Shown here: positions 1,128-58,975 of the stretch, piece after piece
How the letters are laid out: the number at the start of each line of letters is the position of its first letter
Numbering within the stretch: position 1 is the stretch's first letter
NCBI RefSeq assembly: GCF_003574315.2
Contig: NZ_AP025739.1
Location: forward strand, 6,572,001-6,636,000
Direction: 5' to 3'
DNA length: 64,000 nt
Source: Capsulimonas corticalis
GTDB taxonomy: Bacteria; Armatimonadota; Armatimonadia; Armatimonadales; Capsulimonadaceae
Notes under the pieces: generated by a model
What the model saw: only the letters and a program-made list of their open reading frames with translations
Databases searched by the model: none
Told to the model about the DNA's origin: nothing
Made by a program: the position numbers and the translations under genes

Positions 1128-3761
1128 ATGTATCACCGCCTATTCGCCATCGCGATCTTCGCCAGCCTCAGCCTCGCCGCGCACGCCGACGACGCCAAGC
1201 CGAAACTGCCCACGCTTGCCCAGGCGCTCGCGCAGGCGGCGGCTCCAAAGTCGGAATTGTATCTTTCCGTGGACGCCGATCAGGTTATGCTGCCTAAGGA
1301 CGCGCCGCCTCCCGCTCCCGGCGATACCGTGGCGCAGATCGCGACGGAGTATGGCCGTCTGGTGAGCGGATTTGGCGACGTGTCTGTGGTTGCGCCCCAC
1401 ACGATCACCGTCGTCAACGTCCCCCCAGATACTCCTAATCCCTATGACGGCATGGATCCGAAACAGCTTCTCAAACTGCTGACGGCCGGGTTTAAGGCGG
1501 GCCAATGGAAGGCGTTCCTGAGTGAAAACGGCATTGGATACGCGGATCTGCTCACCGACGATCAGCGGTCCCTGTTCGAGGCGCTCTTTCCCGGCGGCGT
1601 TCTGAAAGCGCGGCGCCCTGCGGATGATACGAGTAAGGAAGTGTCGGGAGACGATCTGCGGCTGGCGCATCTGCGCCTCGCCTACGTCGGCTCCATGGCG
1701 CTCGCCGTTACGGGAAAGCCCAACGAGCATGTCTTCACCGGCGCGAACGCCCCGCACCTTGGGCCGGCGACATACGAGATGGAAAATTCGCAAGCCTACA
1801 ACGCCGATCATGAGTACGGCGCCGATGTCCGCACGATCCGCGCGAACGAGCTGAAGCCCAGCGATCTGGACAACGATGACGGCGCCTGGCGCGTCGATGT
1901 CCCCATGGCGGGAGTAAAAACGGTGGATGACCTCATTCGGGTGATCGCCGCCGCCACCCAGCGCGAGGTCTACGCCGATCCCCGGTACGCCGCAAAGCCC
2001 GTCACGCTGCTCGGCGCGGACCGGCCCGCGCGGGCGCTCGATCTACTGAAGGCGCTCGCGCTCTGTGTCGGCGGAACGTATCGGCGGGTCGGTCCCGCGC
2101 TCGTACTGACCGATGATCGGATGGGACTGGCGGTCAAGCATAAGCTCTGGCTGGAGTTCGAGGACAAGGCGCTCGCCGCCGCGCCGCGCGGATCGACGGG
2201 CGAGCCGCCCAAGCCGTCGGACGAGTTGAAGTACACGGCGCTGGATATCCCCTTTACGGGCGACGATGTTCCCGCGACAAAAAAACAGATGGCCGATTAC
2301 TGGAGCGCCTGGCGAAAGAATCCGCAGCCCTGGCAAAACGGGCGGATGGATCTGACGCTGCCGTATAACGAGCTCAGTCCCGCGCAGCAGCGCGCCGCGC
2401 GCGAGATCAAAGCCCTGAACGACAAATGGGGCGACAAAACGACGCTGGACGCGGATATTCTGGTGCAGACCGCCGCCGAAGTGGAGATTGTCGTTCCGGC
2501 GCTCGACGCCCCCGTGATTATCCCCGGGAGCTACGATCGCCTGCTGCCGGATCCACCGCTCAGCGACAAAGAAAAGACGGCGGCGGCGCAGCGTGAGGAA
2601 GCCGGAGCCCCGCAGATCCGTATCGAGCAAGCCCAGACTCCGCAATCACTCAAGCCCATGCTCGCCGCCTTCACGCGCCGGGCCGCGCGTCTGGAGCCGA
2701 AGTCCTCCGAGGATCTGACATCGCGGATCGCCCAGATGCGGGCGCTCGGCGTAAATGAGCTCTGGCTGAAGATCACGCCGGAGGAGTCCGACAAGAACGA
2801 CGACGCGGCGATCGCCCTGCTCCGCCAGGCGGCGGACGAAGGCAAGGCGGCGCATATCGCCGTCTACCCGACGTTCTCCATCTTCGCCTGGCGGCCGCCG
2901 GTCGCGCCGGCGCGGATCGACCTCACGCTGATGGGAGAACCTGCGCCCGATCAAGACGCCGCCGCTCCAAGTCATAACCTGGACGCCGTCTCCCCGTTCG
3001 ATCCCGCCGCCGGGCGCCGCCTGATCTCACTGATCGGGAAAGCAGCGAGCGTGCCGGGAATCGCGGGCATGGTGTGGGACAACATGGTCCCTGCGGGCTA
3101 CGAACGACTCGGGGAACACGAGAGTATGATGATGGGCGACAATCCCCTGGGCTACTCCGTCGACGGCCGGCTCGCCTATCTGCGCAAGGCCCACGCCGAC
3201 CCCGTGGACGCCAACGACAACTACTACGCCCACACGCGCGCCAACGTGACGGTCCCCGGATTCGATGAGCAAATCCTGGACAGCAAACTGCTTCTCGGAT
3301 GGGGCAAACTCCGAATGGGCGTTCGGGATGATCTGCTCCGCTGGCTCACCACCGCCCTGCCCGCCACATTCGCCCCAGGCCCCAGCCAGCTTCCTCTGAT
3401 CGTCCCGCCCGCAAATAACGCGCAGGCTGGAATTTACGGGTCCTGGGACGATTTCGCCCGACCATCGCCCGCCGTCGAGTATATCTTCCCAAAAGACGCG
3501 CAGGGCAAAGAGATCGAAGGATCGTCAGGAACCGAGCGCATGGCGTCCACACTCGCGTACCGCCGCCTCATCATCTTTCCGCGTCAGGCCGCGCCGGCGG
3601 CGGAGAACGCCGTGCGAATCGCCCGCGATCTCCAGGCGATCGCGAAGACCGAAGAGAAAAACATCGTTCTCGACGGCGTGTCGGACGAAACCGTCCTCGA
3701 CACGCTGACGCGCGCAGAAGCGTCGGTCAAGAGCGACTCGGACGTCAAGGCGGCTCCCTGA
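1128..3761 (+). CDS. Secreted STN-like + TIM-barrel-like paralogue (copy 2)
   Basis: 877 residues. A cleavable signal peptide (about 1-21, ending AAHA|DD) predicts export. The mature N-terminus carries the family tag TLAQALAQAA, then a region of unknown fold (about 30-190). Around residues 255-330 a segment reading 'TVDDLIRVIAAATQREVYAD...LALCVGGTYRRVGPALVLTD' resembles the small STN/secretin-type beta-alpha-beta module (inference). From about 505 to the end comes the GHL10-like TIM-barrel region shared with copy 1 (GVNELWLKI, AHIAVYPTFSIFAW, GMVWDNMVPAGYE). The ATG at 1128 follows an AGGACC ribosome-binding site and directly gives the signal peptide. It starts 10 bases after copy 1. Function and substrate are unknown; a carbohydrate-related role is only a guess from the barrel resemblance. 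Confidence 0.88.
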   Translation: MYHRLFAIAIFASLSLAAHADDAKPKLPTLAQALAQAAAPKSELYLSVDADQVMLPKDAPPPAPGDTVAQIATEYGRLVSGFGDVSVVAPHTITVVNVPPDTPNPYDGMDPKQLLKLLTAGFKAGQWKAFLSENGIGYADLLTDDQRSLFEALFPGGVLKARRPADDTSKEVSGDDLRLAHLRLAYVGSMALAVTGKPNEHVFTGANAPHLGPATYEMENSQAYNADHEYGADVRTIRANELKPSDLDNDDGAWRVDVPMAGVKTVDDLIRVIAAATQREVYADPRYAAKPVTLLGADRPARALDLLKALALCVGGTYRRVGPALVLTDDRMGLAVKHKLWLEFEDKALAAAPRGSTGEPPKPSDELKYTALDIPFTGDDVPATKKQMADYWSAWRKNPQPWQNGRMDLTLPYNELSPAQQRAAREIKALNDKWGDKTTLDADILVQTAAEVEIVVPALDAPVIIPGSYDRLLPDPPLSDKEKTAAAQREEAGAPQIRIEQAQTPQSLKPMLAAFTRRAARLEPKSSEDLTSRIAQMRALGVNELWLKITPEESDKNDDAAIALLRQAADEGKAAHIAVYPTFSIFAWRPPVAPARIDLTLMGEPAPDQDAAAPSHNLDAVSPFDPAAGRRLISLIGKAASVPGIAGMVWDNMVPAGYERLGEHESMMMGDNPLGYSVDGRLAYLRKAHADPVDANDNYYAHTRANVTVPGFDEQILDSKLLLGWGKLRMGVRDDLLRWLTTALPATFAPGPSQLPLIVPPANNAQAGIYGSWDDFARPSPAVEYIFPKDAQGKEIEGSSGTERMASTLAYRRLIIFPRQAAPAAENAVRIARDLQAIAKTEEKNIVLDGVSDETVLDTLTRAEASVKSDSDVKAAP

Positions 3762-3855
3762 AAACGATCCGAAGGGCTCCGCGAAACCATTTGGCGCGCA
3801 CACCGTTACAGACGGTACCGATCATTGCCGCCGATCATGCCCAGGACAACACACA

Positions 3856-6507
3856 ATGCCAAACCGACCGCGCCCGCACACCTATGCGCTGGCTACTCTG
3901 CTCGCGATCACGCCTTACGCCGCGCACGCGGACAACGCGCCGAAACCCGCCGCGATCACGCTGGCGCAGGCGCTCGCGCAGGCCGCGCCGCCGAGGTCGG
4001 ATGTTTACATTGCAGTGAACGCCGATCATGTGACGCTGCCCAAAGACGCCATTCCGCCGTCTCCGGGCGATACGGCGGCGCAGGCGGCGACGGCGTTTGG
4101 GCGGAAGATCGATGGATTTCGGAATATCGATGCAATCGCGCCGGCGACAATCATGGTCGTCAACATTCCCCCGGACAAGCCCAATATCTATGATGGGATG
4201 ACGCCGGGCCAGATCGTGCGGCTGCTGGCGGCGAGATTCACGAAGGACGAGTGGCGAGACTTTCTGAGCGACAAAGGCGTGGCGTACGCCGACCTTCAAA
4301 GCGAAGAACAGCGCAGCCTTTTCGACGCGTTGTTTCCCGATCACAAGATCAAGGCGCTGCCGGCGGACGCGGCCAGCTTCACCGATCCCACGACCGATCT
4401 CGGCGCGGACCAGGTGCGGCAGGCGCGCCTGCGTCTGGCGTATAAAACGGGCATCGCGCTCTCCACGCCGGGAAATCCGCACGATCAGCTCTTTGCGAAC
4501 GACTACCGGCCTCCGGGCAGTCCTAAAGTGTACTATATGATGAACACGGCGGATCAGAATGTCGACCACGAATACGGCGCGGATATCCGTAATACCATCC
4601 CCAACACACTGAAGCCCAGTGACCTGAACGACGATGATTCGGCGTGGAAGACGGAGATCGAGCTGACGGGGCTGCGCGCCGTGGACGACTGCGCGCGTGC
4701 GATTTCCGATGGAACGGGACGCGAAATCTACGCCGACCCAAGATACGCCAAACTGACGGTGACGATCCTTGGGCCGCGGACGCCCGTCCGCGCTTATGAC
4801 CTGATGCGGGCGCTGGCGCTGTGCCTGGGGGCAAGCTGGCGACAGGTAGGTCCGGCGTTTGTGCTGACGAACGATCGTGTTGGGCTGGGCGTAAAGCATG
4901 CGCTTTGGCGCGAGTTTGAAGAAAAGGCGGCCGCGATGATGCCGTCAGGCCCCTCGTACGAAGCGCTGCCTCAGCCCGAAGGATCGGCGCTGAACAAGAA
5001 AGATATCCCGTTTACCGCCGACGCCGTCCCCTTCTCCCCAAGGCAGTTGGAGCAATACTGGAAAAAGATGGGGGCTCAGAATATGATGACCACATCCGAT
5101 ATGCTTCAGCTTTCCATGCCCTTCTCTGAGCTGGAGCCGGCGCAGCAGGAGGCCGCGCGGCATATTCAGGAGGCCAACACGCGCGACCATCTGAGCTCCA
5201 CGCTGGACGGCGATGTGACGCTCCAGGCGGAGGCCATGGTTCAGGTAGTCGTTCCGGCGCTCGACGGTCCGGTCGTAATCACGCAAAGCGACAGTGGGCT
5301 GCTGCCGAACCCGCCGATGACCGACGAAGATCAAGCGGCCAGCGCCAAGCTCATGGACAGGATCTTCGCGCAGCAAGGCGTTCGTCCAGATACGAAGACC
5401 GATACGGAAGATCCACCGGCGGCCTATGCACGGTTGGTTCGGACCTTCGAACGTCGGGCTGTCTTGCTCGATGCGCATACGCCTGACGAGGTCGACAAAG
5501 AACTGGCGGCGATGGCGTCCCTCGGCCTCAATGAACTATGGCTGCGTGTCTCTCCCACCCCCACGGACAAAGACGAAGACGCGGCGGTCGCGTGGATCCG
5601 GCGCGCGGCCAAAAGCGCGACGGCGGCGCACATCGCATTCTATCCTGCATTTTCGATTTTGGGCTGGGGCGACGGGACCCCAAACACTCTTCTCGACCGC
5701 ACGGTCCTGGGCCGGTCGGCCGCGCAGGTTCGGAAGGATCCGTCTGGCGGAACGCGCGGCATTCGCGATACCGTCACGCCATTCGCTCCGGAAGTCCCCG
5801 AACGTTTGATGGCGCTGATTGGCCGCGTGGGCCGTATTCCTGGGGTTGCGGGCATGGCGTGGAGCGATCTGTCGGCGCACGGTTACGAATCTGAGGCCTT
5901 CTTTCAAGATAATGAGGCCGCGCTGGGGTACGCGCTGGCAGGGCGTCTCGCCTCGCTGCGCACCGTGCATATCGATCCAATGGACCTTTACAGCAAGCAC
6001 TATCAGGGACGCACGAACATCAGCGTACCCGGCTTTGGCGACAGCGACGAGCGCGACGGCGCGCTCTACGACTCCTGGCGCATCCTGCGCGCCGACACCG
6101 GACACGCCTTTCTCCGCGCCATAACCGCAGCCGTTCCCCCGGCGTCCACGCCGGGCGCGCCCCAGATACCGATCGTCCTTTTGCCGCCGGCCGAGGAGCC
6201 GAGCAATCAATACGGCGTATGGGAGGACCTCGCCAAACCGCCGCCGGCGATGCAGTTCGTTCCCTTCATCGGCGACGACGGCAAGCCGACCAGCAGCGGA
6301 ACGGAAAGAATGTCCGGCAGGACCGTTTATTGGACCGTCGGCTTCTTTATTCCCAAAGACGGCGCGGTGTCCGAAGGCGCAAAGAACGCCGTGCGGACCC
6401 TCAAACAGTACGCGCACGACAAAGTTCGCTGTATCGTCTTCGATCAGATTTCACCAGAGGAATTGATGGCGGAAGCGTCGGCGATTACCGCCGACGTCGG
6501 CGACTAA
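3856..6507 (+). CDS. Secreted STN-like + TIM-barrel-like paralogue (copy 3)
   Basis: 883 residues with the same architecture as copy 2: signal peptide to about residue 23 (ends AAHA|DN), TLAQALAQAAPP tag, N-terminal region with VNIPPDKPNIYDGMTPGQ, STN-like segment with 'GREIYADPRYAKLTVTILG', and the C-terminal barrel-like region with LGLNELWLRVSPT, AHIAFYPAFSILGW and VAGMAWSDLSAHGYE. It resembles copy 4 more than copy 2 (both have NIYDGM, 'LKPSDL/LKPGDL', 'MMNTAD/MMNSPS'). The start at 3856 follows CAGGAC at normal spacing. The 94-base gap from copy 2 is the largest within the array and has no strong promoter or terminator that I can see. Specific activity unknown. Confidence 0.88.
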   Translation: MPNRPRPHTYALATLLAITPYAAHADNAPKPAAITLAQALAQAAPPRSDVYIAVNADHVTLPKDAIPPSPGDTAAQAATAFGRKIDGFRNIDAIAPATIMVVNIPPDKPNIYDGMTPGQIVRLLAARFTKDEWRDFLSDKGVAYADLQSEEQRSLFDALFPDHKIKALPADAASFTDPTTDLGADQVRQARLRLAYKTGIALSTPGNPHDQLFANDYRPPGSPKVYYMMNTADQNVDHEYGADIRNTIPNTLKPSDLNDDDSAWKTEIELTGLRAVDDCARAISDGTGREIYADPRYAKLTVTILGPRTPVRAYDLMRALALCLGASWRQVGPAFVLTNDRVGLGVKHALWREFEEKAAAMMPSGPSYEALPQPEGSALNKKDIPFTADAVPFSPRQLEQYWKKMGAQNMMTTSDMLQLSMPFSELEPAQQEAARHIQEANTRDHLSSTLDGDVTLQAEAMVQVVVPALDGPVVITQSDSGLLPNPPMTDEDQAASAKLMDRIFAQQGVRPDTKTDTEDPPAAYARLVRTFERRAVLLDAHTPDEVDKELAAMASLGLNELWLRVSPTPTDKDEDAAVAWIRRAAKSATAAHIAFYPAFSILGWGDGTPNTLLDRTVLGRSAAQVRKDPSGGTRGIRDTVTPFAPEVPERLMALIGRVGRIPGVAGMAWSDLSAHGYESEAFFQDNEAALGYALAGRLASLRTVHIDPMDLYSKHYQGRTNISVPGFGDSDERDGALYDSWRILRADTGHAFLRAITAAVPPASTPGAPQIPIVLLPPAEEPSNQYGVWEDLAKPPPAMQFVPFIGDDGKPTSSGTERMSGRTVYWTVGFFIPKDGAVSEGAKNAVRTLKQYAHDKVRCIVFDQISPEELMAEASAITADVGD

Positions 6508-28538: not shown

Positions 28539-31202
28539 TCACTCTCCGATCTCATACCATAACGTTTGATACTGTGGCCCCGCCGTGAATGTTAACTCGC
28601 CCTTTTTGTAAGTCGCCGGGACGGGCGCCGCGCGCTTGCCGGTTCCATCCAGCGCCCAGACCCGGCGCGCGGAGGCGATCTTGATCGTGACGGTCGCGGG
28701 AATGCCTTCGGCGATGGTCGGACCGTGGCCCCACTGGTTGCCGACGCTAGTGCGGTCGGCGCTCCAAACCATATCCTGGTTCTCGACTTTGCCGGCGAGT
28801 GTCAGCAGCATTCGGCGAGATTGCAGGATCGGCTTGCCATCCATCGCCGCGAGAACGCCGGACGCGAAGTTATTTCCAAACGAGGGACAGACTAGGGTCA
28901 GCGTTCCAAAGCCAACGCTGCGATGCCCCACGTAGCCGGCGAACGCCTGGATCTGAGGACTTTGAGCCGTGTAGACCGCCGACTGCGGTGATTCGGAATG
29001 GTTCGAAGAATAGAGCGAAACCGTGGAGCGGCGCGCGCCCTTAGAGATCGGATCCGCCTTCCCAGCCTGGCGGGAAGGATCGACCGAAGGCTGGGGGGAC
29101 GTAGAACGCGGCGCCTGAATGGATATGCGTTTTTGGAAAAGATTCGGCTTGCCCTGGGAATCGCGCCAGACCTGATCGATACTGGCTTCGTGGGCGTATT
29201 TCGCGCGGATCGGAAGCACGGACGCCGCCGTGGCCGACGCAAAGGCGCCGCCTCGGAAGATCATGGCGGCGGCGGGGAGAAAGGCGGCCTTGGCGGGATC
29301 GCTCCCAATTCCGAAGAAGCTGTTGATCTTGTCGTTCTGAACGCCTTCGCCATAGTCGCCGTAGTCGAAGAGATAGATCATATCCCAGTCTTGAAAGGCC
29401 GCAAAGGTGGCGAGTTCGGGCATCATCTCCGCACGGTAGTCACTGGGCGCGGGATGATTGTATTCGGAGATGGAGTACGGCTTCCCGGCGACGCGATACT
29501 CCGCGAGGTTCCGCAGCGTACCGCCTCCTCCGCCGGCGAGGTCCGCGACCATCGGGGTATTTCCGATATTCCAATCAACCGAGTCCCAGGGCTTGTGCGG
29601 AAAGCTCGGATGCTGCCAGTAGGCATGGTTGTCCGCGAAATCCATCTTCGCCTCGCGGCCCACGCTCGTCACCCCGCCCCACCCCATTTGCGAACAGATA
29701 ATATTCGCCTTCACCTTCAGGTCATTCTTGAGGAACGCGCGCATCTCGTTCGCATAAGCGCTCTCGGTATCGGCGAGGAACGCGACCCAATCGTCATGCT
29801 GCGCTTTGAAGGAAGAAAGGGGAATCGGAATGCTTTTTGCGGCCAGCGACTCGCCGGCATGCAAACCGGATCCGTCCGCGCCGGCGTGGATCTTAAGCCC
29901 TTCGATCCAGACAACCCCGGTCTGCCCGCCCAATGTAAAGGCGACGCGAACATGATTGGGAACCGCGTCATGGACCGTGAAGACATACTGGTAGTCCTTC
30001 CAGTCCGGCGTGAGCGCCGCATTCGCCGACAGGCCGACATTGCGCCAATCAGCCTGATCGAGCGATGTCGCCACCGGCATCACGCGGGCCGTATCGGCTT
30101 TGGCCCGAAAACTCACCGTATAGGTATCGCCATCGCGCAGATTGAGTCCGGTGACATGCGCCTGGACATGCCAGTCAACGCCATCCACCGCCTTGACCTC
30201 CGCGCGCAAATACGGCGCGAACTGCGGAAGCTGACCGTGGATCATCGGGATCGTCGGTGTAAACTCAGCCTGAGACGTCCCCTGCGCTTCGCTGGACCAG
30301 GTGGAGTTGAGCGTCAGCAGCTCCGGCCCGGCGGCCGTCACGCCCGCCAGCCACGCCGCGCTTAGCTGGGCGTCCGTCCCATACTTCTTCAGCAGCCATG
30401 CGTTCCAGAACTCCGCCAGCTCACCTCGGAACGGCTCGGGCAGCGTGTCCAAATCCCCGCCGAGCGTCGCCCACGGATCGCCGACCAGCGAGTTCTCATT
30501 GTTAATCTCGACCACGGCCACCGCCGGATCTTGATTGTACGCGAGCTTGGTATAGGGGTTCACATGCGTAAGCAGATCGCGCGCGTACTCTTTCTGGCGC
30601 GCGATCATGGTCCGATCAAACTCGTCCACGCGCTTGTCAAAACCGAACGGGATCTGCGCGACACTCGCCGGAAACCCATCCGCCTCCGAGAACTGGCGGC
30701 TGACGTGCAGATTGATATTCACATACACGCCATTCTTCTTGAACTGCGCGATCAGATAGTCCAATCGGTCCAATTGCGCCGCACTGATATGCCGCCGATC
30801 TTTGTACCCGTAATCCCAAATGCTCGCCTGCTGTCCCCAATCGCTGTTGTCCATATGATGCAGCCGGACCAGATTGATCCCCAGCTTCGCGATGCGCTTG
30901 GCCACTTTCACGGCGTCCTCATGCGACGGAAACGCACTCTTCGCCACAAAGTTCGTCGCCAAAAACCGCACCCGCCGCCCCGTCTTCGCCTCCACGAAAT
31001 GCCCATCCCGCGCCACAATATTCCCATGAGACCCCGCCGGCCCATCGTTCAAAAACGAAACATCCGTGATGACGCCGTGCGAGGAGTCATCCCAGGGAAT
31101 CACAAATGGAAACATCGGCGCAGGATCAGCGGCGTGGGCGGGTGTAGCGGCAACGAGGATGGACAAAGCCGTGAGACTGAGAAGAGCAGCGGGGAATTTC
31201 AT
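28539..31202 (-). CDS. Secreted clan GH-A (GH5-like) glycosidase with inserted carbohydrate-binding domain
   Basis: 887 residues from ATG 31202 (GGAG about 8 bases upstream; it begins the signal peptide KFPAALLSLTALSILVAATPAHA). A TIM-barrel glycosidase is indicated by 'FLATNFVAKSAFPSHEDAVKVAKRIAKLGINLVRLHHMD', the likely acid/base in VVEINNENS (near residue 230) and the likely nucleophile in YSISEYNHP (near 577). Between these, at about 345-450, lies a segment resembling CBM4/9 ('DGDTYTVSFRAKADTARVMPV', 'WKDYQYVFTVHD', 'GVVWIEGLKIHAG'), so a binding domain appears to sit inside the catalytic barrel. A beta-rich C-terminal part follows (about 690-887). Substrate probably a beta-linked polysaccharide. 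It faces the NLR gene only 40 bases upstream on the same strand but has no evident link to it. Confidence 0.82.
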   Translation of the reverse strand: MKFPAALLSLTALSILVAATPAHAADPAPMFPFVIPWDDSSHGVITDVSFLNDGPAGSHGNIVARDGHFVEAKTGRRVRFLATNFVAKSAFPSHEDAVKVAKRIAKLGINLVRLHHMDNSDWGQQASIWDYGYKDRRHISAAQLDRLDYLIAQFKKNGVYVNINLHVSRQFSEADGFPASVAQIPFGFDKRVDEFDRTMIARQKEYARDLLTHVNPYTKLAYNQDPAVAVVEINNENSLVGDPWATLGGDLDTLPEPFRGELAEFWNAWLLKKYGTDAQLSAAWLAGVTAAGPELLTLNSTWSSEAQGTSQAEFTPTIPMIHGQLPQFAPYLRAEVKAVDGVDWHVQAHVTGLNLRDGDTYTVSFRAKADTARVMPVATSLDQADWRNVGLSANAALTPDWKDYQYVFTVHDAVPNHVRVAFTLGGQTGVVWIEGLKIHAGADGSGLHAGESLAAKSIPIPLSSFKAQHDDWVAFLADTESAYANEMRAFLKNDLKVKANIICSQMGWGGVTSVGREAKMDFADNHAYWQHPSFPHKPWDSVDWNIGNTPMVADLAGGGGGTLRNLAEYRVAGKPYSISEYNHPAPSDYRAEMMPELATFAAFQDWDMIYLFDYGDYGEGVQNDKINSFFGIGSDPAKAAFLPAAAMIFRGGAFASATAASVLPIRAKYAHEASIDQVWRDSQGKPNLFQKRISIQAPRSTSPQPSVDPSRQAGKADPISKGARRSTVSLYSSNHSESPQSAVYTAQSPQIQAFAGYVGHRSVGFGTLTLVCPSFGNNFASGVLAAMDGKPILQSRRMLLTLAGKVENQDMVWSADRTSVGNQWGHGPTIAEGIPATVTIKIASARRVWALDGTGKRAAPVPATYKKGELTFTAGPQYQTLWYEIGE

Positions 31203-31242
31203 AAAAAGCTCCAGAGGAATTGCGAATAGCTCCACGAATAAA

Positions 31243-33573
31243 TTACATCTGCCTTATTTGCCGAAAACGTTGATAATTTGTGTTTGTATCCATTGTGATT
31301 GGATGCTTCGCGCCCAGAGTCTTCTCATAAATACTAAGACCGTGAATATAGTGCTGGTTCGCATCTTCATATCGGCCCTGACCCTCGTATATATTTGCAA
31401 GGGTAATAAGACTACTAGCGATGTCAGGATGGTCGTTAGCAAAAACACGTCTTCTAATCAAAAGCCCTTGTTCACAAAGTAGTTCTGCATCTTCATAACG
31501 CGCCTGATAGTAATAGAGCACAGACAGACAGTTTGCGCTATTAGCAGTTTCAGGGTGATTAATACCGATTCTTTCTTTTCGAATATTAAAAGCCTTCAGA
31601 TACATTACTTCGGCTTTACTATAATCTCCTTGACTAAAGTATACAGTTGCTAAAGTATTGACACTGTGAGCGATTTCTGGATAATTCAGCTCTATACTTT
31701 TTTCTTGAATAGACAAGGCTTCTAAAGCCATCATTTCGGCTTCAATATATTTATGTAATTTGATATACGAGAACGCCAAATTCGTCATGCATGTGGCAAT
31801 TTTTGAAATGTTACGTAGTGGCTGTTGCTTGTAAACATCCAATGCTTGCAAATAAAGAGGTTCAGCTCTTTCATACTTACCCTGCTTAGCAAACAATCCA
31901 CCCAAATTATTCATAGCAATCGCGACACTTGGGTTATTGCGCCAATATATTTTTTTATAAATACATAGAACTTCCTCATAAAGTGGTTCGGCTTTCTCGT
32001 AAAACCCTTCATCCTCGTAAAAAGCTGCTAGATTATTAACACTTGCAGCTACACCGAATTGATCAACATATTTACTATTCTTGTAAATATTAATAGCACA
32101 TAAATAAAGTTGCTCCACAATGGAATATTTAGCACGATCATGGAGATAATAAGCAGTGGAGTTTAGAAACTGCGCTGCTGATAAAAAAGAAAACTGATAT
32201 ATGAGTATATGATCAGAGCATATTATAGCATGAGGTAATAATCTTTCGCATATTCCCCATACCGAATAATCAGGTTTTGGGAAAGCAGCAGCTACAGCAA
32301 GTACAGATTTCTTAGCATATATACACCTCGTTTGTTCATCCATGCCATGCTGAATGACAGCTTGAACCAAACGATGAACATCGTAGGTACGCTCCTTCGT
32401 ATCGCGCTGAATCAGAGAGTAGCGCGCAAGGTGATCGAGCAACTCATCCATTAGCAGTGGATCTTCGTCATAATCCGTGAGCGCCGCTTCTACTGCTTGT
32501 CCTATTTCCGACGCTCCGAGCAGCACGAGTTCTTCTGGAATGCCATTGGGATTAAAAAAAGCGCTGACGCGGAGCAGTTCCGTCGCCGCTTCAGATTCTT
32601 GCTCAACAGCCTCGAAATTGAGAGACCATGTGGTGGCGACTGTCTTCTCGTAGGCTCCCGTTTCTGCTTTCGTATCTTGAAACAGCCGTATTCGGCGTTT
32701 GCGATAGCTTGCGAGATATGATTGGAAGGTGGATTGCTTTTCACAGAGATAGGCACCCGCCTGTTCCAGCGCCAGCGGCAGACAGCCCATCTCTTGGGCA
32801 AGTTCTAATGCCGCCTTCTGTTCCGCTTCATCTGCATCTAATCGGTCGGTCCTCTGGAGCAGAAATGCTACTGCTTCTTTCTCACTAAGCACCAATAAAA
32901 TCGTGGGATGGGGCAGGTTGATTGTGCCGAAGTGACGAGCGCGTGATGTGAGCAACAGGTGCCCCGCCAGATGCAGGGGCAGATACGCCGCCAATAAATC
33001 GGGGGTGTCGGCATTGTCGAGGATGAGCAGGTAGTCTGGCTTTTCGGTGAGCCAGCGTTTGACAGCTTCACGGACATGGCTAATCTCTTCGGCGTCTTTC
33101 TCAGGCAAATCAAGAAGAACGGCGATCCCACGGAAGGAAGAATTGAGAGCGGTTTCGGTATCAGCCTGCGCCCAGAGGATGGCGTGATACTGCTCTCGAT
33201 GTCGGTAGGCGTATTCGATTGCGGTTTGAGTTTTACCGACGCCGCCGAGCCCCGAAATGGCCTGGTTCTTCGCGACGTACGCCTGGGTTAGGGCTACTTT
33301 CTGCGTTGAAGCGAGAGTCCTTTCAAGGTTCGCGAGAATCTCCTCACGCCCCGTGAAGAACGGATTGGGAGGATATGGGACGTTCCATAGACGCCCGGGT
33401 TCCGAGAGGGCGGGAGAGGCAAGACGCGCGATCAAGGGCGCAAGGTCAACGCCAGCGGCTTGGGCTTGATTCAGATTGAGCGTGAAGTAGTTATTCTGTG
33501 TATTGCCGGTTCCACTTTGAATACCTTGGCCGCCGGAAATATGCGTAGGACCGTAATCGGGAGAATCGCTCAT
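31243..33573 (-). CDS. NLR-like NB-ARC/TPR protein with N-terminal RHIM-like amyloid motif
   Basis: 776 residues from ATG 33573 (AAAGG upstream). The N-terminus carries ISGGQGIQSGTGNTQNNYF (residues 12-30), a RHIM/PP-like amyloid motif of the BASS type. A NB-ARC STAND ATPase follows: P-loop GLGGVGKTQTA near 108, Walker B 'YLLILDNAD' near 180, 'HLLLTSRARHF' (sensor 1), 'LAQEMGCLPLALEQAGAYL' (GxP motif) and a winged-helix part with 'YDVHRLVQAVIQHGM'. Residues about 500-770 contain six or seven kinesin-light-chain-type TPRs of about 42 residues ('NNLAAFYEDEGFYEKAEPLYEE', 'NNLGGLFAKQGKYERAEPLY'). In such proteins the TPRs sense a ligand, NB-ARC oligomerises and the amyloid motif templates a partner effector. 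The TPR half is strikingly AT-rich (near 37% GC in sampled lines) beside the NB-ARC half. The cognate effector is probably the next gene upstream (33605-34006). Confidence 0.85.
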   Translation of the reverse strand: MSDSPDYGPTHISGGQGIQSGTGNTQNNYFTLNLNQAQAAGVDLAPLIARLASPALSEPGRLWNVPYPPNPFFTGREEILANLERTLASTQKVALTQAYVAKNQAISGLGGVGKTQTAIEYAYRHREQYHAILWAQADTETALNSSFRGIAVLLDLPEKDAEEISHVREAVKRWLTEKPDYLLILDNADTPDLLAAYLPLHLAGHLLLTSRARHFGTINLPHPTILLVLSEKEAVAFLLQRTDRLDADEAEQKAALELAQEMGCLPLALEQAGAYLCEKQSTFQSYLASYRKRRIRLFQDTKAETGAYEKTVATTWSLNFEAVEQESEAATELLRVSAFFNPNGIPEELVLLGASEIGQAVEAALTDYDEDPLLMDELLDHLARYSLIQRDTKERTYDVHRLVQAVIQHGMDEQTRCIYAKKSVLAVAAAFPKPDYSVWGICERLLPHAIICSDHILIYQFSFLSAAQFLNSTAYYLHDRAKYSIVEQLYLCAINIYKNSKYVDQFGVAASVNNLAAFYEDEGFYEKAEPLYEEVLCIYKKIYWRNNPSVAIAMNNLGGLFAKQGKYERAEPLYLQALDVYKQQPLRNISKIATCMTNLAFSYIKLHKYIEAEMMALEALSIQEKSIELNYPEIAHSVNTLATVYFSQGDYSKAEVMYLKAFNIRKERIGINHPETANSANCLSVLYYYQARYEDAELLCEQGLLIRRRVFANDHPDIASSLITLANIYEGQGRYEDANQHYIHGLSIYEKTLGAKHPITMDTNTNYQRFRQIRQM

Positions 33574-33604
33574 CGGGTAGATGCCTTTACCGCTCTCATT
33601 AGCT

Positions 33605-34006
33605 CTACGATTGAGAAGTTGGTGAAGCTCCGAAGGTGTTCGTCTGCGTATTGCCGTCGCCCACTTGATTACCTTGCCCGCCGGAGATGGCAACGTTGTA
33701 TTTGCCTTGCGCCGTGCCGGAGGGATCGGCGGCCGCGAGTAGCGCCTTGGCTTGCTTCAGAACTTCTTCGTTCTTATCTAGACCTGCTTGTAGAATAGCA
33801 TCCTTCAGGATTGCCTCATAAGCTTGGGGTTTCTTTTCGTGATGCTTCAGCGCGCTTTCCGCCTCTTCGTCGCCGGCGAAATGCTTGTGCAGGAGTTCTT
33901 TGAGGCTGGCGTAGGCGTTTTTTGCCGCCTCGCTGAGCGCTCCTTTCGCAAGCTCGGGGCCAGCGAACGCAAGAGCTGTGACAATGAGCGTACCTGGGTC
34001 CATCAT
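33605..34006 (-). CDS. Bell-like effector with C-terminal RHIM-like amyloid motif
   Basis: 133 residues from ATG 34006 (AAAGGA about 10 bases upstream; 34003 is also an ATG). The N-terminal ~100 residues open with MDPGTLIVTALAFAG and continue 'SEAAKNAYASLKELLHKHFAG', 'ALKHHEKKPQAYEAILKDAILQAG', an all-helical pattern I recognise as the Bell-type domain found with bacterial amyloid signalling motifs and compared to fungal HeLo/MLKL-like killers. The C-terminus has ISGGQGNQVGDGNTQTNTF, 14 of 19 residues identical to the NLR's N-terminal motif, including the Q-V-G RHIM-like core. It lies 31 bases upstream of the NLR gene on the same strand, hence one operon. Predicted role: cell-death or membrane-attacking effector triggered when the NLR seeds amyloid. 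The domain name rests on pattern recognition, not a search. Confidence 0.75.
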   Translation of the reverse strand: MMDPGTLIVTALAFAGPELAKGALSEAAKNAYASLKELLHKHFAGDEEAESALKHHEKKPQAYEAILKDAILQAGLDKNEEVLKQAKALLAAADPSGTAQGKYNVAISGGQGNQVGDGNTQTNTFGASPTSQS

Positions 34007-44217: not shown

Positions 44218-44775
44218 ATGGAGCAATCGTATCAACTGGATCAGAAGGACTACCTTCAGTTCAACCATTTCATCATCACCAGTGATCGCCGGTTCCTGGC
44301 GCAGCGGATCCTGAGGGTTCTCCTCTTTCCCCTCGTGATTGCCTTCGAGCTCTATCAATACGGCGTTCCCATGCCGCTCTATCTGGCCCTTGTCGCGGCC
44401 GGTCTGGCGGCATGGCTGGTCCTCATGCAGATAGGCATACGCCGGGCGGTTATCGCCGCCGTCAAAGTGCGGGTGGGATCCATCGGCCTCTTCACGACGT
44501 CCATCGACACTGCCGGCATCCATGTGGAAGGTCCGGTGACGGACACGCGCGTCCGCTGGTCAAAGATCATTTCGATCACGGAAAGTCCGCAGCATCTGCT
44601 ATTTCTGCTGGGACCGGCGTTTGGGTTCATGATCCCCAAAGCGTCGTTTCGCGATCCCGAACACGCGCGCCAATTTCTGGAGACCGCCAGAGCCTATCAA
44701 GCGGGAACACTGCCCCTCGACGCTCCCGTTTCGACAAGCGGCGCGTGGCCGCCGCCGCCGCAGCGGCTGAGATGA
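44218..44775 (+). CDS. YcxB-like membrane protein
   Basis: 185 residues from ATG 44218. An N-terminal soluble segment (EQSYQLDQKDYLQFNHFIIT) is followed by two membrane helices ('ILRVLLFPLVIAFELYQYG', 'PLYLALVAAGLAAWLVLMQIG') and a cytosolic beta-rich C-terminal domain with 'GLFTTSIDTAGIHVEGPVTDTRVRWSKIISITESPQHLLFLLGPAFGFMIPKASFRD', the layout and wording of the YcxB-like family. Function of that family is unknown. A collapsed relative lies at 47501-47764, on the other side of the metzincin gene. Its 3' end has a proline-rich tail (WPPPPQRLR). Confidence 0.75.
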   Translation: MEQSYQLDQKDYLQFNHFIITSDRRFLAQRILRVLLFPLVIAFELYQYGVPMPLYLALVAAGLAAWLVLMQIGIRRAVIAAVKVRVGSIGLFTTSIDTAGIHVEGPVTDTRVRWSKIISITESPQHLLFLLGPAFGFMIPKASFRDPEHARQFLETARAYQAGTLPLDAPVSTSGAWPPPPQRLR

Positions 44776-44936
44776 AGAAAACTATCCGAGGTAAGTATTC
44801 GCAATTTTCATGGAACTTATTTCTATGTTCTGTCGCCAAACTCGTGGATATCGGTTTCCATGCTCTCCCGCATTTCCACAGTCCGACGCGCTTGGCGCGC
44901 CGGCAATTCTACTTTACTACCATCTACGGAGAGTTT

Positions 44937-47435
44937 ATGAACAGCAGTCGACCGCGAACCCTCTGGCGGGGCATCGCCGCCGCCGTCTCCCTCGCCGCGC
45001 TTTGCGCGCCGGGCGTACACGCCGATTCGGGGGTTCCGCCGGGGACGCCGCCGGATATCGCCGCGATTATGCGTAAGGTCCAGCGCGGCGGCCAGCCGAC
45101 GGGAGCGGATATCGCCAAGCTTCAAGCCTGGTCCCAGAAGCTGATCGAGAACGTGAACGGGCCGGTCAAAAACGGATCGCAGTTCCGGCCGTCCACACGC
45201 ACGACGCCTGGCAGTCAGGCGGCCGCGAAGGCGGGCGAGCAGGAAGGAATCCCCTGCACGGTCCGCGTCAGCGTCAATTACAGCGGGCGTGGCCATGACA
45301 GCAGCGAGGACTTTCAGGCGACGTATACCGCCAGGGCGATGCTGTATCCGCGATTAAACGGGACGGGCGATTACTGGGCGACAATGATGAACCCGGACGC
45401 TCAGGTCTCGTCGTTTCGGTTTGAGCCGCTTGCGGCCGACAGCGGCGCGGCCATCGCCAGAGCCGGCGGCGGTTCCTACCACAAGCATACGACCGGGGTT
45501 CATGGAAGTTACTCGGAGTCGACGGGAACTTATACGCAAGCGGCCTTCAGCATGCAGCTGGTGACTACGGGCAAGGGCGATCGGCTCTACCCGTCGGGCG
45601 GGGTTGGCGGCGCGGGCGTGGGAACCACGACCATGCATGACCGGCAAAGTACCAATACCGTCAAAGACAGCGGCGTCGGCACTTCGCTTTCCCTCCCGTT
45701 TGTTTCGGAGAACGCCAAGCTTGGTCCCGGGACATCCACTCCCATGCCGATGATGACGTTGTCTTATCAGGCGCTCGTCGCCGCCATCCGATCCGGCGGG
45801 ACAGCCACGGTCACGGGCAGCGAGGGGTTCTCAAACTTCTCACTCGGCGGCTTGAATTACGGCGGCCAAAGCTCGATCTCCATCACGCTGCGTCCCAAAC
45901 CTATGGAGATCCTGATCGAACCCGTCAACAAACGGCTTTACGAAGCCTGGGAGCCGCTGCCGGACACCGACGACGCCCACGCATCGGCGCTGAACACCGA
46001 CGCTCCGACGACGGATTTCTTCCCTTCCCCTGCGCCGCTGGCGTTCCATGTGGTGATGCATGACGACTCCAAGGCGCCCGTCGCCCCCAGCGCCAACGGC
46101 CTGACGCGCCCCAACACGCAGATCGGCGGCTTGATCGACATTTACCTGCACGAGGTCAGCGAGCAGCTGGGCATCTGCATGAACTATCCGACAGACGCGA
46201 GAACCAAAAAGGGATTATTCTTCCCACACACGCAGCCGGCGGGGATCACGTGGGTCGACGAACAGCATGTCAAAACGACCAGCGCCACCGCGCTCGATGC
46301 GACCGTGAACGTCTGCGCCCGCGACACGGGCGCCTATGGCAAGATCGACGCCAAATGCGAGCTGCTGGGCCTGGATTCTAAAAGCGTGCGAAACACGGAT
46401 ACGTATCTGGCGATCCCGCTGGACGACGACAATAATAATATCGCCGACCAGTACGAAAAGGACAATGGGATCTACGATCGAAGACTGGCCGCGAATTGGG
46501 ACGAGGAGGACAAGCCCGCGAACTGGCGGTCCAACGGCGACGGCCTCACGCTCTATGAGGAGTATCGCGGCTTTTTGATCGACGATCCCAATCATAAGGA
46601 AGTTTTCCAACGTCTGGATCAGAAGAAGCGCAAGCTGTTCGTCTATCTGAACGGACCGGACCACGATATCTATCGGCAGGGCGCCGAACTGTTCAAAAAC
46701 GCCTCCGGCCTGGATGTCTATTATCTGCACGATCCCAAGCGCATGAAGCCGATGGCGCAGGCGATGCATCCGCGCTGGATGAACTTCAACAAAACGCCCT
46801 ACAGCGATTACGATCAGGCCGCCGTGTGGATCGACGATTACGACGACAATAAAACGGCGTATACGAAGCCGATGCCGGGTATCGACGAAGTCGCGCCGCA
46901 GTGCCCCGTAACGACCGACGCCATCAATATCTCACGTCCGAAGAACACGGAGGAAGTTTTCAACTGGACGGGGAGGTTTCCGCCCCGACAGCCCGCAAAC
47001 GCCCCGACGCCACGCATCAAAGCGGCGTGTATCGCGATGGGGATCGACTTCGCCTCCATCGGGGACACAATCACGGCGCGTAACCCGGAGCTGGTCAACC
47101 AGCTGATGGTCTTTAGCGTCGCGCATGAACTGGGACACGCCACCGGCGCCCGCCATCACGCTGTCGACTCCTATGTCCTGTTCCTCAATTCACACCCAAA
47201 CACGGGACCGAAGGGGGATCCGACGCCCGCCGAGGCCGCAGCGGCGGAAACCGAAATGGCGGAATGTTACTCCAGCGGCGACCATAACTGCCTGATGCGC
47301 TACTGGAACTACGACAACGACCTGTCGGAGCTGGTCTCGTTCTACGCCGGCCGATGGCATTTGACTACCGCCTCCACGGGCAACCCGTGGACGTTCTGCC
47401 CGGACGACTTGATGTACATGCACCTCAAGAAGTAA
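44937..47435 (+). CDS. Secreted metzincin-type zinc metalloprotease
   Basis: 832 residues from ATG 44937 (GGAGAG upstream), which begins the signal peptide (NSSRPRTLWRGIAAAVSLAALCAPGVHA); the open frame continues upstream to 44412 only by chance. Near residue 731 lies HELGHATGARHH, an exact HExxHxxGxxH metzincin motif (three zinc His, catalytic Glu). Just before it are 'NQLMVFSVAHELGH' and, further upstream, calcium-type acidic stretches ('DDDNNNIADQYEKDNG', 'NGDGLTLYEEYRGF') like thrombospondin-3/EF-hand loops. About 600 residues between signal and protease have no domain I recognise. A Met-turn candidate is 'NCLMRYWNYDN' about 50 residues after the motif. Predicted extracellular protease; substrate unknown. 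Confidence 0.8.
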   Translation: MNSSRPRTLWRGIAAAVSLAALCAPGVHADSGVPPGTPPDIAAIMRKVQRGGQPTGADIAKLQAWSQKLIENVNGPVKNGSQFRPSTRTTPGSQAAAKAGEQEGIPCTVRVSVNYSGRGHDSSEDFQATYTARAMLYPRLNGTGDYWATMMNPDAQVSSFRFEPLAADSGAAIARAGGGSYHKHTTGVHGSYSESTGTYTQAAFSMQLVTTGKGDRLYPSGGVGGAGVGTTTMHDRQSTNTVKDSGVGTSLSLPFVSENAKLGPGTSTPMPMMTLSYQALVAAIRSGGTATVTGSEGFSNFSLGGLNYGGQSSISITLRPKPMEILIEPVNKRLYEAWEPLPDTDDAHASALNTDAPTTDFFPSPAPLAFHVVMHDDSKAPVAPSANGLTRPNTQIGGLIDIYLHEVSEQLGICMNYPTDARTKKGLFFPHTQPAGITWVDEQHVKTTSATALDATVNVCARDTGAYGKIDAKCELLGLDSKSVRNTDTYLAIPLDDDNNNIADQYEKDNGIYDRRLAANWDEEDKPANWRSNGDGLTLYEEYRGFLIDDPNHKEVFQRLDQKKRKLFVYLNGPDHDIYRQGAELFKNASGLDVYYLHDPKRMKPMAQAMHPRWMNFNKTPYSDYDQAAVWIDDYDDNKTAYTKPMPGIDEVAPQCPVTTDAINISRPKNTEEVFNWTGRFPPRQPANAPTPRIKAACIAMGIDFASIGDTITARNPELVNQLMVFSVAHELGHATGARHHAVDSYVLFLNSHPNTGPKGDPTPAEAAAAETEMAECYSSGDHNCLMRYWNYDNDLSELVSFYAGRWHLTTASTGNPWTFCPDDLMYMHLKK

Positions 47436-56476: not shown

Positions 56477-58975
56477 CTATTTTGTTACCTTGCCTCGATG
56501 ATAAACCACTTGCCGTGCATTCGCCGATGCAACAAAATGCGCTATATTACGCGGTGAGACTTCCACACCGTTAGGTATCTGTTTGCAGCCTATGAATTCG
56601 ATTGCGTTTTCGGGTTTAATATTGTTGATGTAATAATTTGAAATTTTTACATTCTGAAACGTGCTGCTTTTGAAATGAATGGGACGCATGCCATCAATCA
56701 CCACATTCCGCAATTGCGCGTTTGAAAAATCAATTCGTACCGAATTCGCCTTCGTATACTCGTTGAGTGGATTTTTCAAATCGAAACTCGGCCTTTCTGC
56801 TACAGGGCGTATGAGTTGGATATTCTCAAAGGGACCAACATATGTATAAACATAACTATCGGATGAATCCGGAGGGGTGCTAAATTCACAGTCAATTAAT
56901 TTTGAATTACGCCAGTCCTTCATTCCAGAAAGTGAATCTCGGTAAAAAGAACAACGAATAAACGTTGTGTGATCTATGTAACAGCTATTTTCCCAAGAAA
57001 AGGCATCCATTAGTCTCCCAAACGCAAACCTAGGACTTCTGAGTTTACGTGGATAATTCCTCAAATCGATATCCACAACTTTCATATCCGAAAGATCCAC
57101 TGCCCTAATATATCGGGCATTAATGCACCATTGAGTACAGTTGGTCTTGAATAAATCCCAATCAGACACCTGACGCATATCGCTAAACGCGGTGTTTTCG
57201 TTGCTGGCGTAATAATATCGGTTCTGCTCAAAATTACCGAACATCCACATCAATAATGCAATCACTCCGCCGATTAATAACAATGCCGCATATATCCATG
57301 TAAAGGAGATCAATCCCGCTGAGAAGTAATGCGGGATAGCGAGCGTAACTAGGCGCATACGTTTTCTGCGGTCAACAGACAAACGTGAAAGTCGGAATCT
57401 AAACTTTCCCATACTGTAATTCAGACGCGCCGCTAAGAAAATACCGCTTAGAGCCGATGTACAGAGAATTACGATTGCTGCTGCGAGCATAACGAGCGTG
57501 TAGAGGTAGATTAAACATGGACTGATAGCAAAAGTACGAAAAAGTAGAAACATGGCGATCAGCCACACACCAGAGAGCAGTGGAAGGTTCGTAAATTTGA
57601 GAACGAGAAAGTCGGAATCCACTGCGGTAGGATCAATTCCTGCATTTTCCGCATATCGTATCTGCCGAACAGACCATCGCTTCACTCGCGCGGAAATAAG
57701 CGGCTCATATGATCCCTTAAATAGCTTCATAACGACAAGATTAAGTTTGCGGACGAAAAGACTGTCTGGCAATAAATCTGAAATTAACGTATGCTGTCCA
57801 AATGTTTGAAAAATTTGATCGTGATAAGGTACATAACATAGGATCGAGCCATTGATCGTCTTGGAGATAGTCTGTTCATACATTGCCGCAAGATGGGGAA
57901 TCTTCTGATTGGAACGGACACGGTTTATGATAAGATGAATAATAGGTTGGAATTTGGACTCCGCCAGGGCGGATTTCAGGTGGTCGAGGAGGGTCAGCGT
58001 GCCAGAGAACGTAACTATATCAGGTTCATTGACCAGAATCGTCTGGTCGGCAAGAGCTGCACTCGCCGTCGTAAGACGGTCGATGCCACAAAAGCAATCG
58101 AGGATCACGCAATCAAAGCGATGGCGACTGACTAATATTCGAATTTGTTCGCGTAGTAGAAAGATTAAATGTTCTACGGTAATGGACGGATCTAGTGTAG
58201 GATGTTCCTGAGGACGTGCAGAAGGTATGAAATAGTATTGATCCTTCACCATGATAAGATCTTTCAATGGAACAGCTTCGAGACTTGCTCCACCCAGCAG
58301 ATGCGCAGTTGTCAGATATGTTCGCCCTGGCCTAACGCAAGACGAAAAAAGTCCTGTTGCACCTCGGTTACTAAAGTCCAAGTCAATGACGAGAACACGT
58401 GCATTAGCCTTGCAAATCACATTGGCGATGTTAGTCGATATTGTGGTCTTCCCGCATCCTCCTTTTCCACTTGTCACCGCGATTACAGGGACGTTAATCG
58501 GGGATACTTCACTGATGTGTGGCATGCCAGGCAACCATTGAATCGGCACCTTTTTAAGGAACTCCTCACTGTGCCTTGTGGAATTGAGCTTTTCCTCCCC
58601 CGTTGCCTTTCGGTTCCAATAATATGCAATTGCGATAAATAGGGCGATGAACAAACCCAGACTATCTACTGCAAAAACACTGAATTTCAGGATCTCGATA
58701 CTGCCTGTGACACTGGTATGTGAGAGACTAAAGCAGCAGAGAACGAACGTCAGGACAATCATTGTCAGGCAAATGAAATAGAATTGCTTCAGAGGAGTTT
58801 GTTCCGCCAACCATTGACTGAGACCACGAAGGGAGCTCAATCCCGTGACAGCAGCCTCCATAATATCACGTAGGGATTGAGGCTTTGTTGATTCGCTTGC
58901 CGTAGGTTCAGCCTTAGTTTGTAGATCTGATGGATTAGATAAAGTTGGATCATTTTGTTCATGTTTGATAGGCAT
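56477..58975 (-). CDS. Membrane-anchored MinD/ParA-like ATPase with pentapeptide-like C-terminal domain
   Basis: 832 residues from ATG 58975, behind a fine GAGGAGA. After a polar 50-residue tail, two helices ('FYFICLTMIVLTFVLCCFSL', 'FAVDSLGLFIALFIAIAYYW') lead to a MinD/ParA-type ATPase (about 155-420). It has the deviant Walker A GKGGCGKTT near 169, 'RVLVIDLDFSNRGATGLF' (Walker A' side), 'FDCVILDCFCGID' (Walker B region) and 'LIINRVRSNQ' (nucleotide specificity). Around 465-580 come about four more helices. The C-terminal 220 residues hold irregular A(D/N)LxN-like repeats ('IDFSNAQLRNVVIDGMRPIHFKSSTFQNVKISNY'), as in pentapeptide-repeat sheets. Composition is about 45% GC, well below most neighbours, suggesting transfer. 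I know no named family with this layout. An anchored spatial-positioning or capsule-export-type switch is speculation. Confidence 0.72.
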   Translation of the reverse strand: MPIKHEQNDPTLSNPSDLQTKAEPTASESTKPQSLRDIMEAAVTGLSSLRGLSQWLAEQTPLKQFYFICLTMIVLTFVLCCFSLSHTSVTGSIEILKFSVFAVDSLGLFIALFIAIAYYWNRKATGEEKLNSTRHSEEFLKKVPIQWLPGMPHISEVSPINVPVIAVTSGKGGCGKTTISTNIANVICKANARVLVIDLDFSNRGATGLFSSCVRPGRTYLTTAHLLGGASLEAVPLKDLIMVKDQYYFIPSARPQEHPTLDPSITVEHLIFLLREQIRILVSRHRFDCVILDCFCGIDRLTTASAALADQTILVNEPDIVTFSGTLTLLDHLKSALAESKFQPIIHLIINRVRSNQKIPHLAAMYEQTISKTINGSILCYVPYHDQIFQTFGQHTLISDLLPDSLFVRKLNLVVMKLFKGSYEPLISARVKRWSVRQIRYAENAGIDPTAVDSDFLVLKFTNLPLLSGVWLIAMFLLFRTFAISPCLIYLYTLVMLAAAIVILCTSALSGIFLAARLNYSMGKFRFRLSRLSVDRRKRMRLVTLAIPHYFSAGLISFTWIYAALLLIGGVIALLMWMFGNFEQNRYYYASNENTAFSDMRQVSDWDLFKTNCTQWCINARYIRAVDLSDMKVVDIDLRNYPRKLRSPRFAFGRLMDAFSWENSCYIDHTTFIRCSFYRDSLSGMKDWRNSKLIDCEFSTPPDSSDSYVYTYVGPFENIQLIRPVAERPSFDLKNPLNEYTKANSVRIDFSNAQLRNVVIDGMRPIHFKSSTFQNVKISNYYINNIKPENAIEFIGCKQIPNGVEVSPRNIAHFVASANARQVVYHRGKVTK

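Follow-up and report, generated by a model that had tools for sequence, protein, structure and literature searches.

Two adjacent genes on the minus strand of the window, the 64,000-nucleotide stretch of Capsulimonas corticalis DNA analysed here, are probably an amyloid-signalling NLR pair of the Bell/BASS type, a two-gene cassette built around a RHIM-like motif of class BASS3. One copy of the motif lies at the C-terminus of a small effector-like protein and the other at the N-terminus of an NB-ARC/TPR protein. The match between the copies, their BASS3 profile scores and matched flanks at 13 of 18 related loci make the Bell/BASS reading well supported as a statement on architecture and homology. 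Passages of PMC7889193 and PMC9815663 already describe such pairs, and the kind dates to Dyrka et al. (2020, J Mol Biol 432:6005). The present pair is a good fresh example of that kind and no new one. The preliminary description of this DNA, which had read it as a Bell/BASS effector with its NLR, holds in part, for the matched pair, the BASS3-type motif and the relatives beside STAND genes, and overstated the interest of the find. The open reading frame (ORF) coordinates also agree with its account of two neighbouring minus-strand genes, with the gene for the small protein preceding the NLR gene across a gap of 31 bases. The features of the pair are as follows.

33605..34006, minus strand: small effector-like protein, 132 residues from the ATG at 34003 or 133 from the ATG at 34006; start region ATGATGGAC.
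33719..34003, minus strand: Bell-like helical N-terminal domain, about residues 1-95, common to 17 other loci (18-locus alignment and single-sequence AlphaFold2).
33632..33688, minus strand: BASS3-type motif at the C-terminus of the small protein, ISGGQGNQVGDGNTQTNTF, residues 106-124 (motif alignment and BASS3 profile).
33574..33604, minus strand: intergenic spacer of 31 bases (ORF coordinates).
31243..33573, minus strand: NB-ARC/TPR protein of NLR type, 776 residues (ORF with Pfam and NCBIfam).
33484..33540, minus strand: BASS3-type motif at the N-terminus of the NLR, ISGGQGIQSGTGNTQNNYF, residues 12-30 (motif alignment and BASS3 profile).
32329..33354, minus strand: STAND/NB-ARC core with DUF7779, residues 74-415, P-loop at 108 and MHD-like motif at 398.
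31294..32049, minus strand: TPR array of six 42-residue units, NLR residues 509-760.
31243..32382, minus strand: AT-rich part of the NLR gene after codon 397 (third-position GC 0.30, against 0.57 before it).

Local alignment of the two proteins confirmed the 19-residue motif with 14 identical residues that had been claimed earlier (score 68, with identity at 43 of 57 nucleotides). The first 60 NLR residues were shuffled 20,000 times without reaching this score, the best shuffle attaining 55, and different synonymous codons encode 4 of the 14 residues in common. The core G-x-Q-x-G-x-x-N-x-Q-x-N was searched as a degenerate DNA pattern, with the reversed pattern as control, and its only two matches in the 7.65 Mb genome are both at this gene pair. 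Within the phylum of the window 8 of 291 genomes match. The seven others have one match each and, set against 6 control matches over the 291 genomes, look like chance; at the two of these loci that were read (L043, L044) there is no such pair. A slightly stricter pattern gave 5 matches in 2 of 396 genomes of the phylum of G291 (Actinomycetes locus), against 3 for the control, and all five lie within a Bell-like small gene or its neighbour. Viral contigs yielded 66 pattern matches, none of them confirmed.

The assignment of the motif to the BASS3 type is supported by its resemblance to a published peptide and to three other loci. A profile built without the window from seven 21-residue stretches (the Frankia BASS3 peptide and both sides of loci L028, L029 and L030) scores the two copies 43.6 and 35.6. 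Of the 339 ORFs in the window, the next one scores 8.0, and seven effectors with other motifs reach at most -0.3. No shuffle of either copy, in 50,000, attained its score. On their own profile the seven reference stretches score 53-64, so that the window copies are low-side outliers. The Frankia peptide, listed in Table 2 of PMC8086366, gave aggregate-type infrared spectra according to passages of that paper, and a passage of PMC9815663 reports that Q113P and Q120P abolish foci of the Streptomyces atratus BASS3 protein. Going by residue numbers, Q113 and Q120 of our effector, and likewise Q19 and Q26 of the NLR, have the same spacing as the S. atratus pair.

Tblastn and profile searches recovered relatives of the small protein from plasmids (cyanobacterial, actinobacterial and rhizobial) and from a small number of genomes. 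Three queries gave 6, 8 and 9 overlapping plasmid records; relatives occur in 5 of the 396 genomes of the G291 phylum and, at E 0.001, in 4 of the 291 of the window's phylum, two of the latter weak. Arthrobacter J3.40 (the same as J3.53) and plasmids H36 and H37, which look like Tolypothrix copies, were dropped before counting, and L023 and L032 (E about 8e-4) were left out of the counts as too weak. This left 18 non-redundant loci, the window and 17 others, whose alignment has a common part of about residues 1-95. A plasmid search with the L028 effector as query returned no further relatives, and the phage records held no match to the small protein. One single genome-contig match, L003, was rejected: it is a 451-residue ORF rich in Gly, Asn, Asp and Ser, taken to resemble the motif stretch alone, and its genome yielded no relative in a profile search.

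The C-terminal 50 residues of all 18 effectors were then compared, locus by locus, with stop-to-stop frames of the effector's own flanks and of the flanks of the other loci, over 360 bases downstream and 560 bases upstream on the other strand. The own-flank scores sum to 941, a value reached by none of 100,000 permutations. A matched flank was found at 13 loci (window, L006, L007, L008, L009, L010, L025, L027, L029, L030, L033, L034, L035), where at most 17 of 2,000 shuffles of the C-terminus reach the score; L007 (17) and L034 (7 of 2,000) are the weakest. A STAND-type neighbour, recognised either from Pfam or from a P-loop on visual inspection, is present at 10 of the 13. NACHT, nSTAND1, NB-ARC or AAA_16 marks the neighbour at L006, L007, L009, L027 and L034, as well as at the unmatched L031, and nSTAND1 that at L029 and the unmatched L028. 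The L008 neighbour shows Pfam TPRs alone and those of L025 and L035 nothing at 1e-6; all three have a P-loop by eye. Relatives of the small protein do adjoin STAND genes with matched motifs of their own. The class of motif varies among loci bearing the same effector domain, and the finding of one effector domain with many motif classes, mostly matched to the neighbour, favours the motif as the wire that connects the sensor to the effector. At L008 (4918-5051, Arthrobacter plasmid) and L035 (4894-5031, Rhizobium plasmid) the matched motif lies in frame upstream of the annotated NLR start, and these starts are probably annotated too late.

Several observations weigh against this reading. The flank test failed at 5 of the 18 loci (L026, L028, L031, L036, L037). 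At L028 the NLR does bear the motif (score 45), but at a greater distance than the test covered, and the pattern matches in both L028 genes. L031 (G002) is the one other good relative within the phylum of the window. Three of the matched neighbours, those at L010, L030 and L033, are short proteins. In the BASS3 group (window, L028, L029, L030) the scores fail to pick out each effector's partner, the window being the exception, where the effector scores 68 with its own NLR and at most 59 with others; for the effectors of L029 and L030, other BASS3 partners give higher scores than their own. The earlier claim of a BASS/RHIM-type motif stands as far as BASS3 is concerned, but Pfam RHIM (PF12721) gave no match to either window protein at E up to 1, while the L029 effector passes it (24.2 bits, cut-off 20). 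The core tetrads, NQVG in the effector and IQSG in the NLR, each deviate from the RHIM consensus tetrad. In all seven BASS3 reference stretches position 1 is V, M, L or A and position 3 is V or F; position 1 is N in the window's effector, and position 3 is S in the NLR. The first helix of the small protein is only moderately hydrophobic, with a best 19-residue mean of 1.29; the usual threshold for membrane segments is about 1.6. Finally, amyloid formation, killing and phage defence by the pair are inferred. Two further observations concern these loci. L026, L036 and L037 (Rhodococcus and Gordonia plasmids and one genome of the G291 phylum) have a longer, different C-terminus in common. At L030, a 215-residue protein other than an NLR (5164-5811), with a hydrophobic stretch and a BASS3-type start, KGAQVGDGNVQHNTY, adjoins the Bell-like gene.

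In the scheme proposed here, the TPR half would sense a trigger, probably derived from phage, upon which the NB-ARC core, whose motifs are intact, may exchange nucleotide and oligomerise as in the STAND family. The N-terminal motifs clustered in this way could form a cross-beta seed. The motif at the C-terminus of the small protein might then be templated into this fold by the seed, a step for which the matching is observed and the chemistry presumed. The helical N-terminal domains, once clustered, would attack the membrane in the manner of HeLo/MLKL proteins, and the cell would be killed or arrested.

A variant of this scheme, which we consider improbable, combines an obligately heterotypic BASS3 amyloid with a sensor half exchanged as a module at the MHD-like motif, at a site where related species keep or lose NLRs. 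Each motif copy would lack one hydrophobic tetrad residue, at complementary positions; neither copy would polymerise well alone whereas the mixed fibril would, which might guard against spontaneous death. From these complementary deviations a prediction can be derived, open to test, about what keeps systems of this kind from self-firing.

The motif could instead be a soluble homotypic docking element of EAD10 type, by which the NLR would recruit the small protein with no amyloid step involved. Passages of PMC7159879 describe EADs as occurring in duplicate in neighbouring genes, where they connect effectors with STAND cores, and EAD10 as predicted alpha+beta, and Pfam EAD10 (PF19954) does match residues 72-120 of the small protein (E 4.6e-4, 20.6 bits). 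This score falls below the curated cut-off of 24.1, and at E up to 0.1 only the window's protein matches among the 18 relatives, so the assignment to EAD10 was rejected. Moreover, the shared part comprises 19 residues rich in Gly, Asn and Gln, is modelled as disordered and resembles the Frankia peptide of PMC8086366, which has been shown to aggregate. We therefore regard simple docking as unlikely.

In single-sequence AlphaFold2 models, the N-terminal domain of the small protein is a helical bundle (mean pLDDT 82.5) and the motif region is disordered, at low confidence. Foldseek with these models gave no match at E 0.001, HeLo/MLKL included, and VIA-align Z was at most 3.0; the absence of HeLo/MLKL among the fold matches listed should be taken as no evidence against such a kinship. 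Profile search of solved structures gave a designed binder as best match (E 0.022). PMC7889193 calls sequence homology between BELL and HeLo undetectable and membrane killing a hypothesis; contrary to this, PMC9815663 speaks of the two as homologues. The unmatched fold and the moderate hydrophobicity of helix 1 would also suit motif signalling with another output, with the small protein as scaffold, inhibitor or regulator or with a role outside defence. A glycosidase and a CarboxypepD_reg gene as neighbours and the lack of a named PADLOC system count in the same direction. On the other side, relatives of the NLR body bear TIR, a known effector class, and Bell is treated, as a hypothesis, as a membrane-targeting death domain in passages of PMC7889193. 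Such an output seems rather unlikely, if somewhat less so than docking.

In comparison with known systems, the Bell/BASS cassette proposed here agrees with described Bell/BASS3 pairs in its small helical protein with a C-terminal motif and its adjacent NLR with the same BASS3-type motif at the N-terminus, and differs from them in less hydrophobic core tetrads. The passages on these pairs name Actinomycetes, Cyanobacteria and Archaea as hosts, Armatimonadota not being among those named there. A literature search only partly aimed at the phylum gave no such pair in Armatimonadota among the matches listed; if the host is an armatimonad, the known host range is widened. Its single-contig genome with one such motif couple would make seeding specificity easy to test. 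With mammalian RHIM and fungal PP with HeLo/HELLP the pair has in common the G-x-Q-x-G...N-x-Q core and the copies on receptor and effector side, but it lacks a Pfam RHIM match and detected HeLo homology. EAD10 (Kaur et al. 2020) likewise joins effector and STAND core of adjacent genes by a short shared element, but the small protein of the window stays under its Pfam cut-off.

As claimed at the outset, the larger protein is of NB-ARC/TPR type: NB-ARC scores 33.0 bits (cut-off 23.5), DUF7779 is present, and the C-terminal repeats match TPR_10 (178 bits) and TPR_12 (141 bits). Intact motifs are the P-loop GLGGVGKT at 108, YLLILDNAD at 181 and DVHRL at 398, the latter two of which we take to be a Walker B and an MHD-like motif. 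The TPR units are 39-56% identical in DNA and so give no sign of near-identical repeats. Like FxsT, the protein has an NB-ARC and TPR body, and this body passes NF040586 (FxSxx_TPR, FxsT; 367.7 bits, cut-off 300); unlike FxsT, it carries the motif at its N-terminus. An FxSxx-COOH system was rejected, since the best match to the radical-SAM partner FxsB in the genome reaches 28.2 bits against a cut-off of 370, and we read the match as one of NLR-body family rather than peptide system. PADLOC matched no named defence system at the pair; the NLR hit a generic TPR model (E 3e-8) and Csx21 (E 0.051) and the small protein nothing.

Among relatives of the NLR, one on a Prosthecochloris plasmid has a TIR domain fused where the window protein has the motif. 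Upstream of the best-ranked plasmid relative (Acaryochloris, 39.6%) a small protein is again encoded, and by eye its end, VRGDKNIVIGQSSGGSF, is similar to the start of the NLR, VIGDKNLAIGVAESGST. The place of the motif thus appears to hold in relatives either an effector or another shared motif. In this Acaryochloris pair (L052) the small protein (1781-2203) has no Pfam match, the FxsT-like NLR spans 2267-5641, and the shared motif differs, being about V-x-GDKN-x-x-IG. On a Streptomyces plasmid (L055) a protein with N-terminal hydrophobic stretches (1860-2324) precedes an FxsT-like NLR (2384-5125), and both bear stretches of the GG[DHN]...TGD type, similar to each other on visual inspection. 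The genome of the window has one other protein with the NB-ARC region of the NLR (36% identity), a TPR protein of 1078 residues at L077 2716-5952 (G000:C1 773215-776451). Its N-terminus shows, in place of the motif, a sub-threshold PNP_UDP_1 match (E 0.0024, 17.8 bits, cut-off 25.1).

The locus itself may have a composite history. Third-position GC of the NLR gene drops from 0.57 to 0.30 at codon 397 (LR 58, 0 of 300 shuffles), next to the MHD-like motif at residue 398; it is 0.70-0.81 in 19 of the 25 longest window ORFs listed. An exchange of the sensor half at this codon is suggestive only, because one of five other genes tested also breaks strongly (44412-47435, LR 48; the other four, LR 5-11). 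A genome of the same genus (G021, 69% complete) has an orthologue (72%) of the window's glycosidase. Directly upstream of it, at the corresponding place, lies an NLR piece of 398 codons (L070, C483, 4444-5637, minus strand). The piece is 38% identical to residues 229-583 of the window NLR, lacks the P-loop part, with stops preceding it, and has a third-position GC of 0.61; the contig ends 232 bases beyond it. The two flanks of the pair fall on different contigs in G021, the remnant beside one of them, so that the comparison does not show an insertion into an empty site, and a profile search of this incomplete genome found no relative of the small protein. From this remnant, NLRs seem to have occupied the site already before the pair acquired the form it has now. 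One could also suppose that the C. corticalis locus is itself decaying or silent and the motif match mere ancestry by duplication, as G021 keeps only an NLR remnant there and the core pattern is not above chance in other genomes of the phylum. Both frames are intact, though, with P-loop, Walker B-like and MHD-like motifs conserved, and while the two copies of the motif have diverged at 14 of 57 bases, 14 of their 19 residues are still identical, 4 of these through synonymous codons. A mere relic is thus highly improbable.

The genes flanking the pair encode a cellulase-like glycosidase (28539-31235) and the CarboxypepD_reg protein, and neither is a defence gene. The strongly breaking gene at 44412-47435 (plus strand) is a 1007-residue ORF with no Pfam match at 1e-4 and its break at codon 151. 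Elsewhere in the window, an 832-residue gene on the minus strand (56477-58975) has a GC content of 0.44 against 60% for the window and encodes a ParA/MinD-type ATPase domain and hydrophobic stretches.

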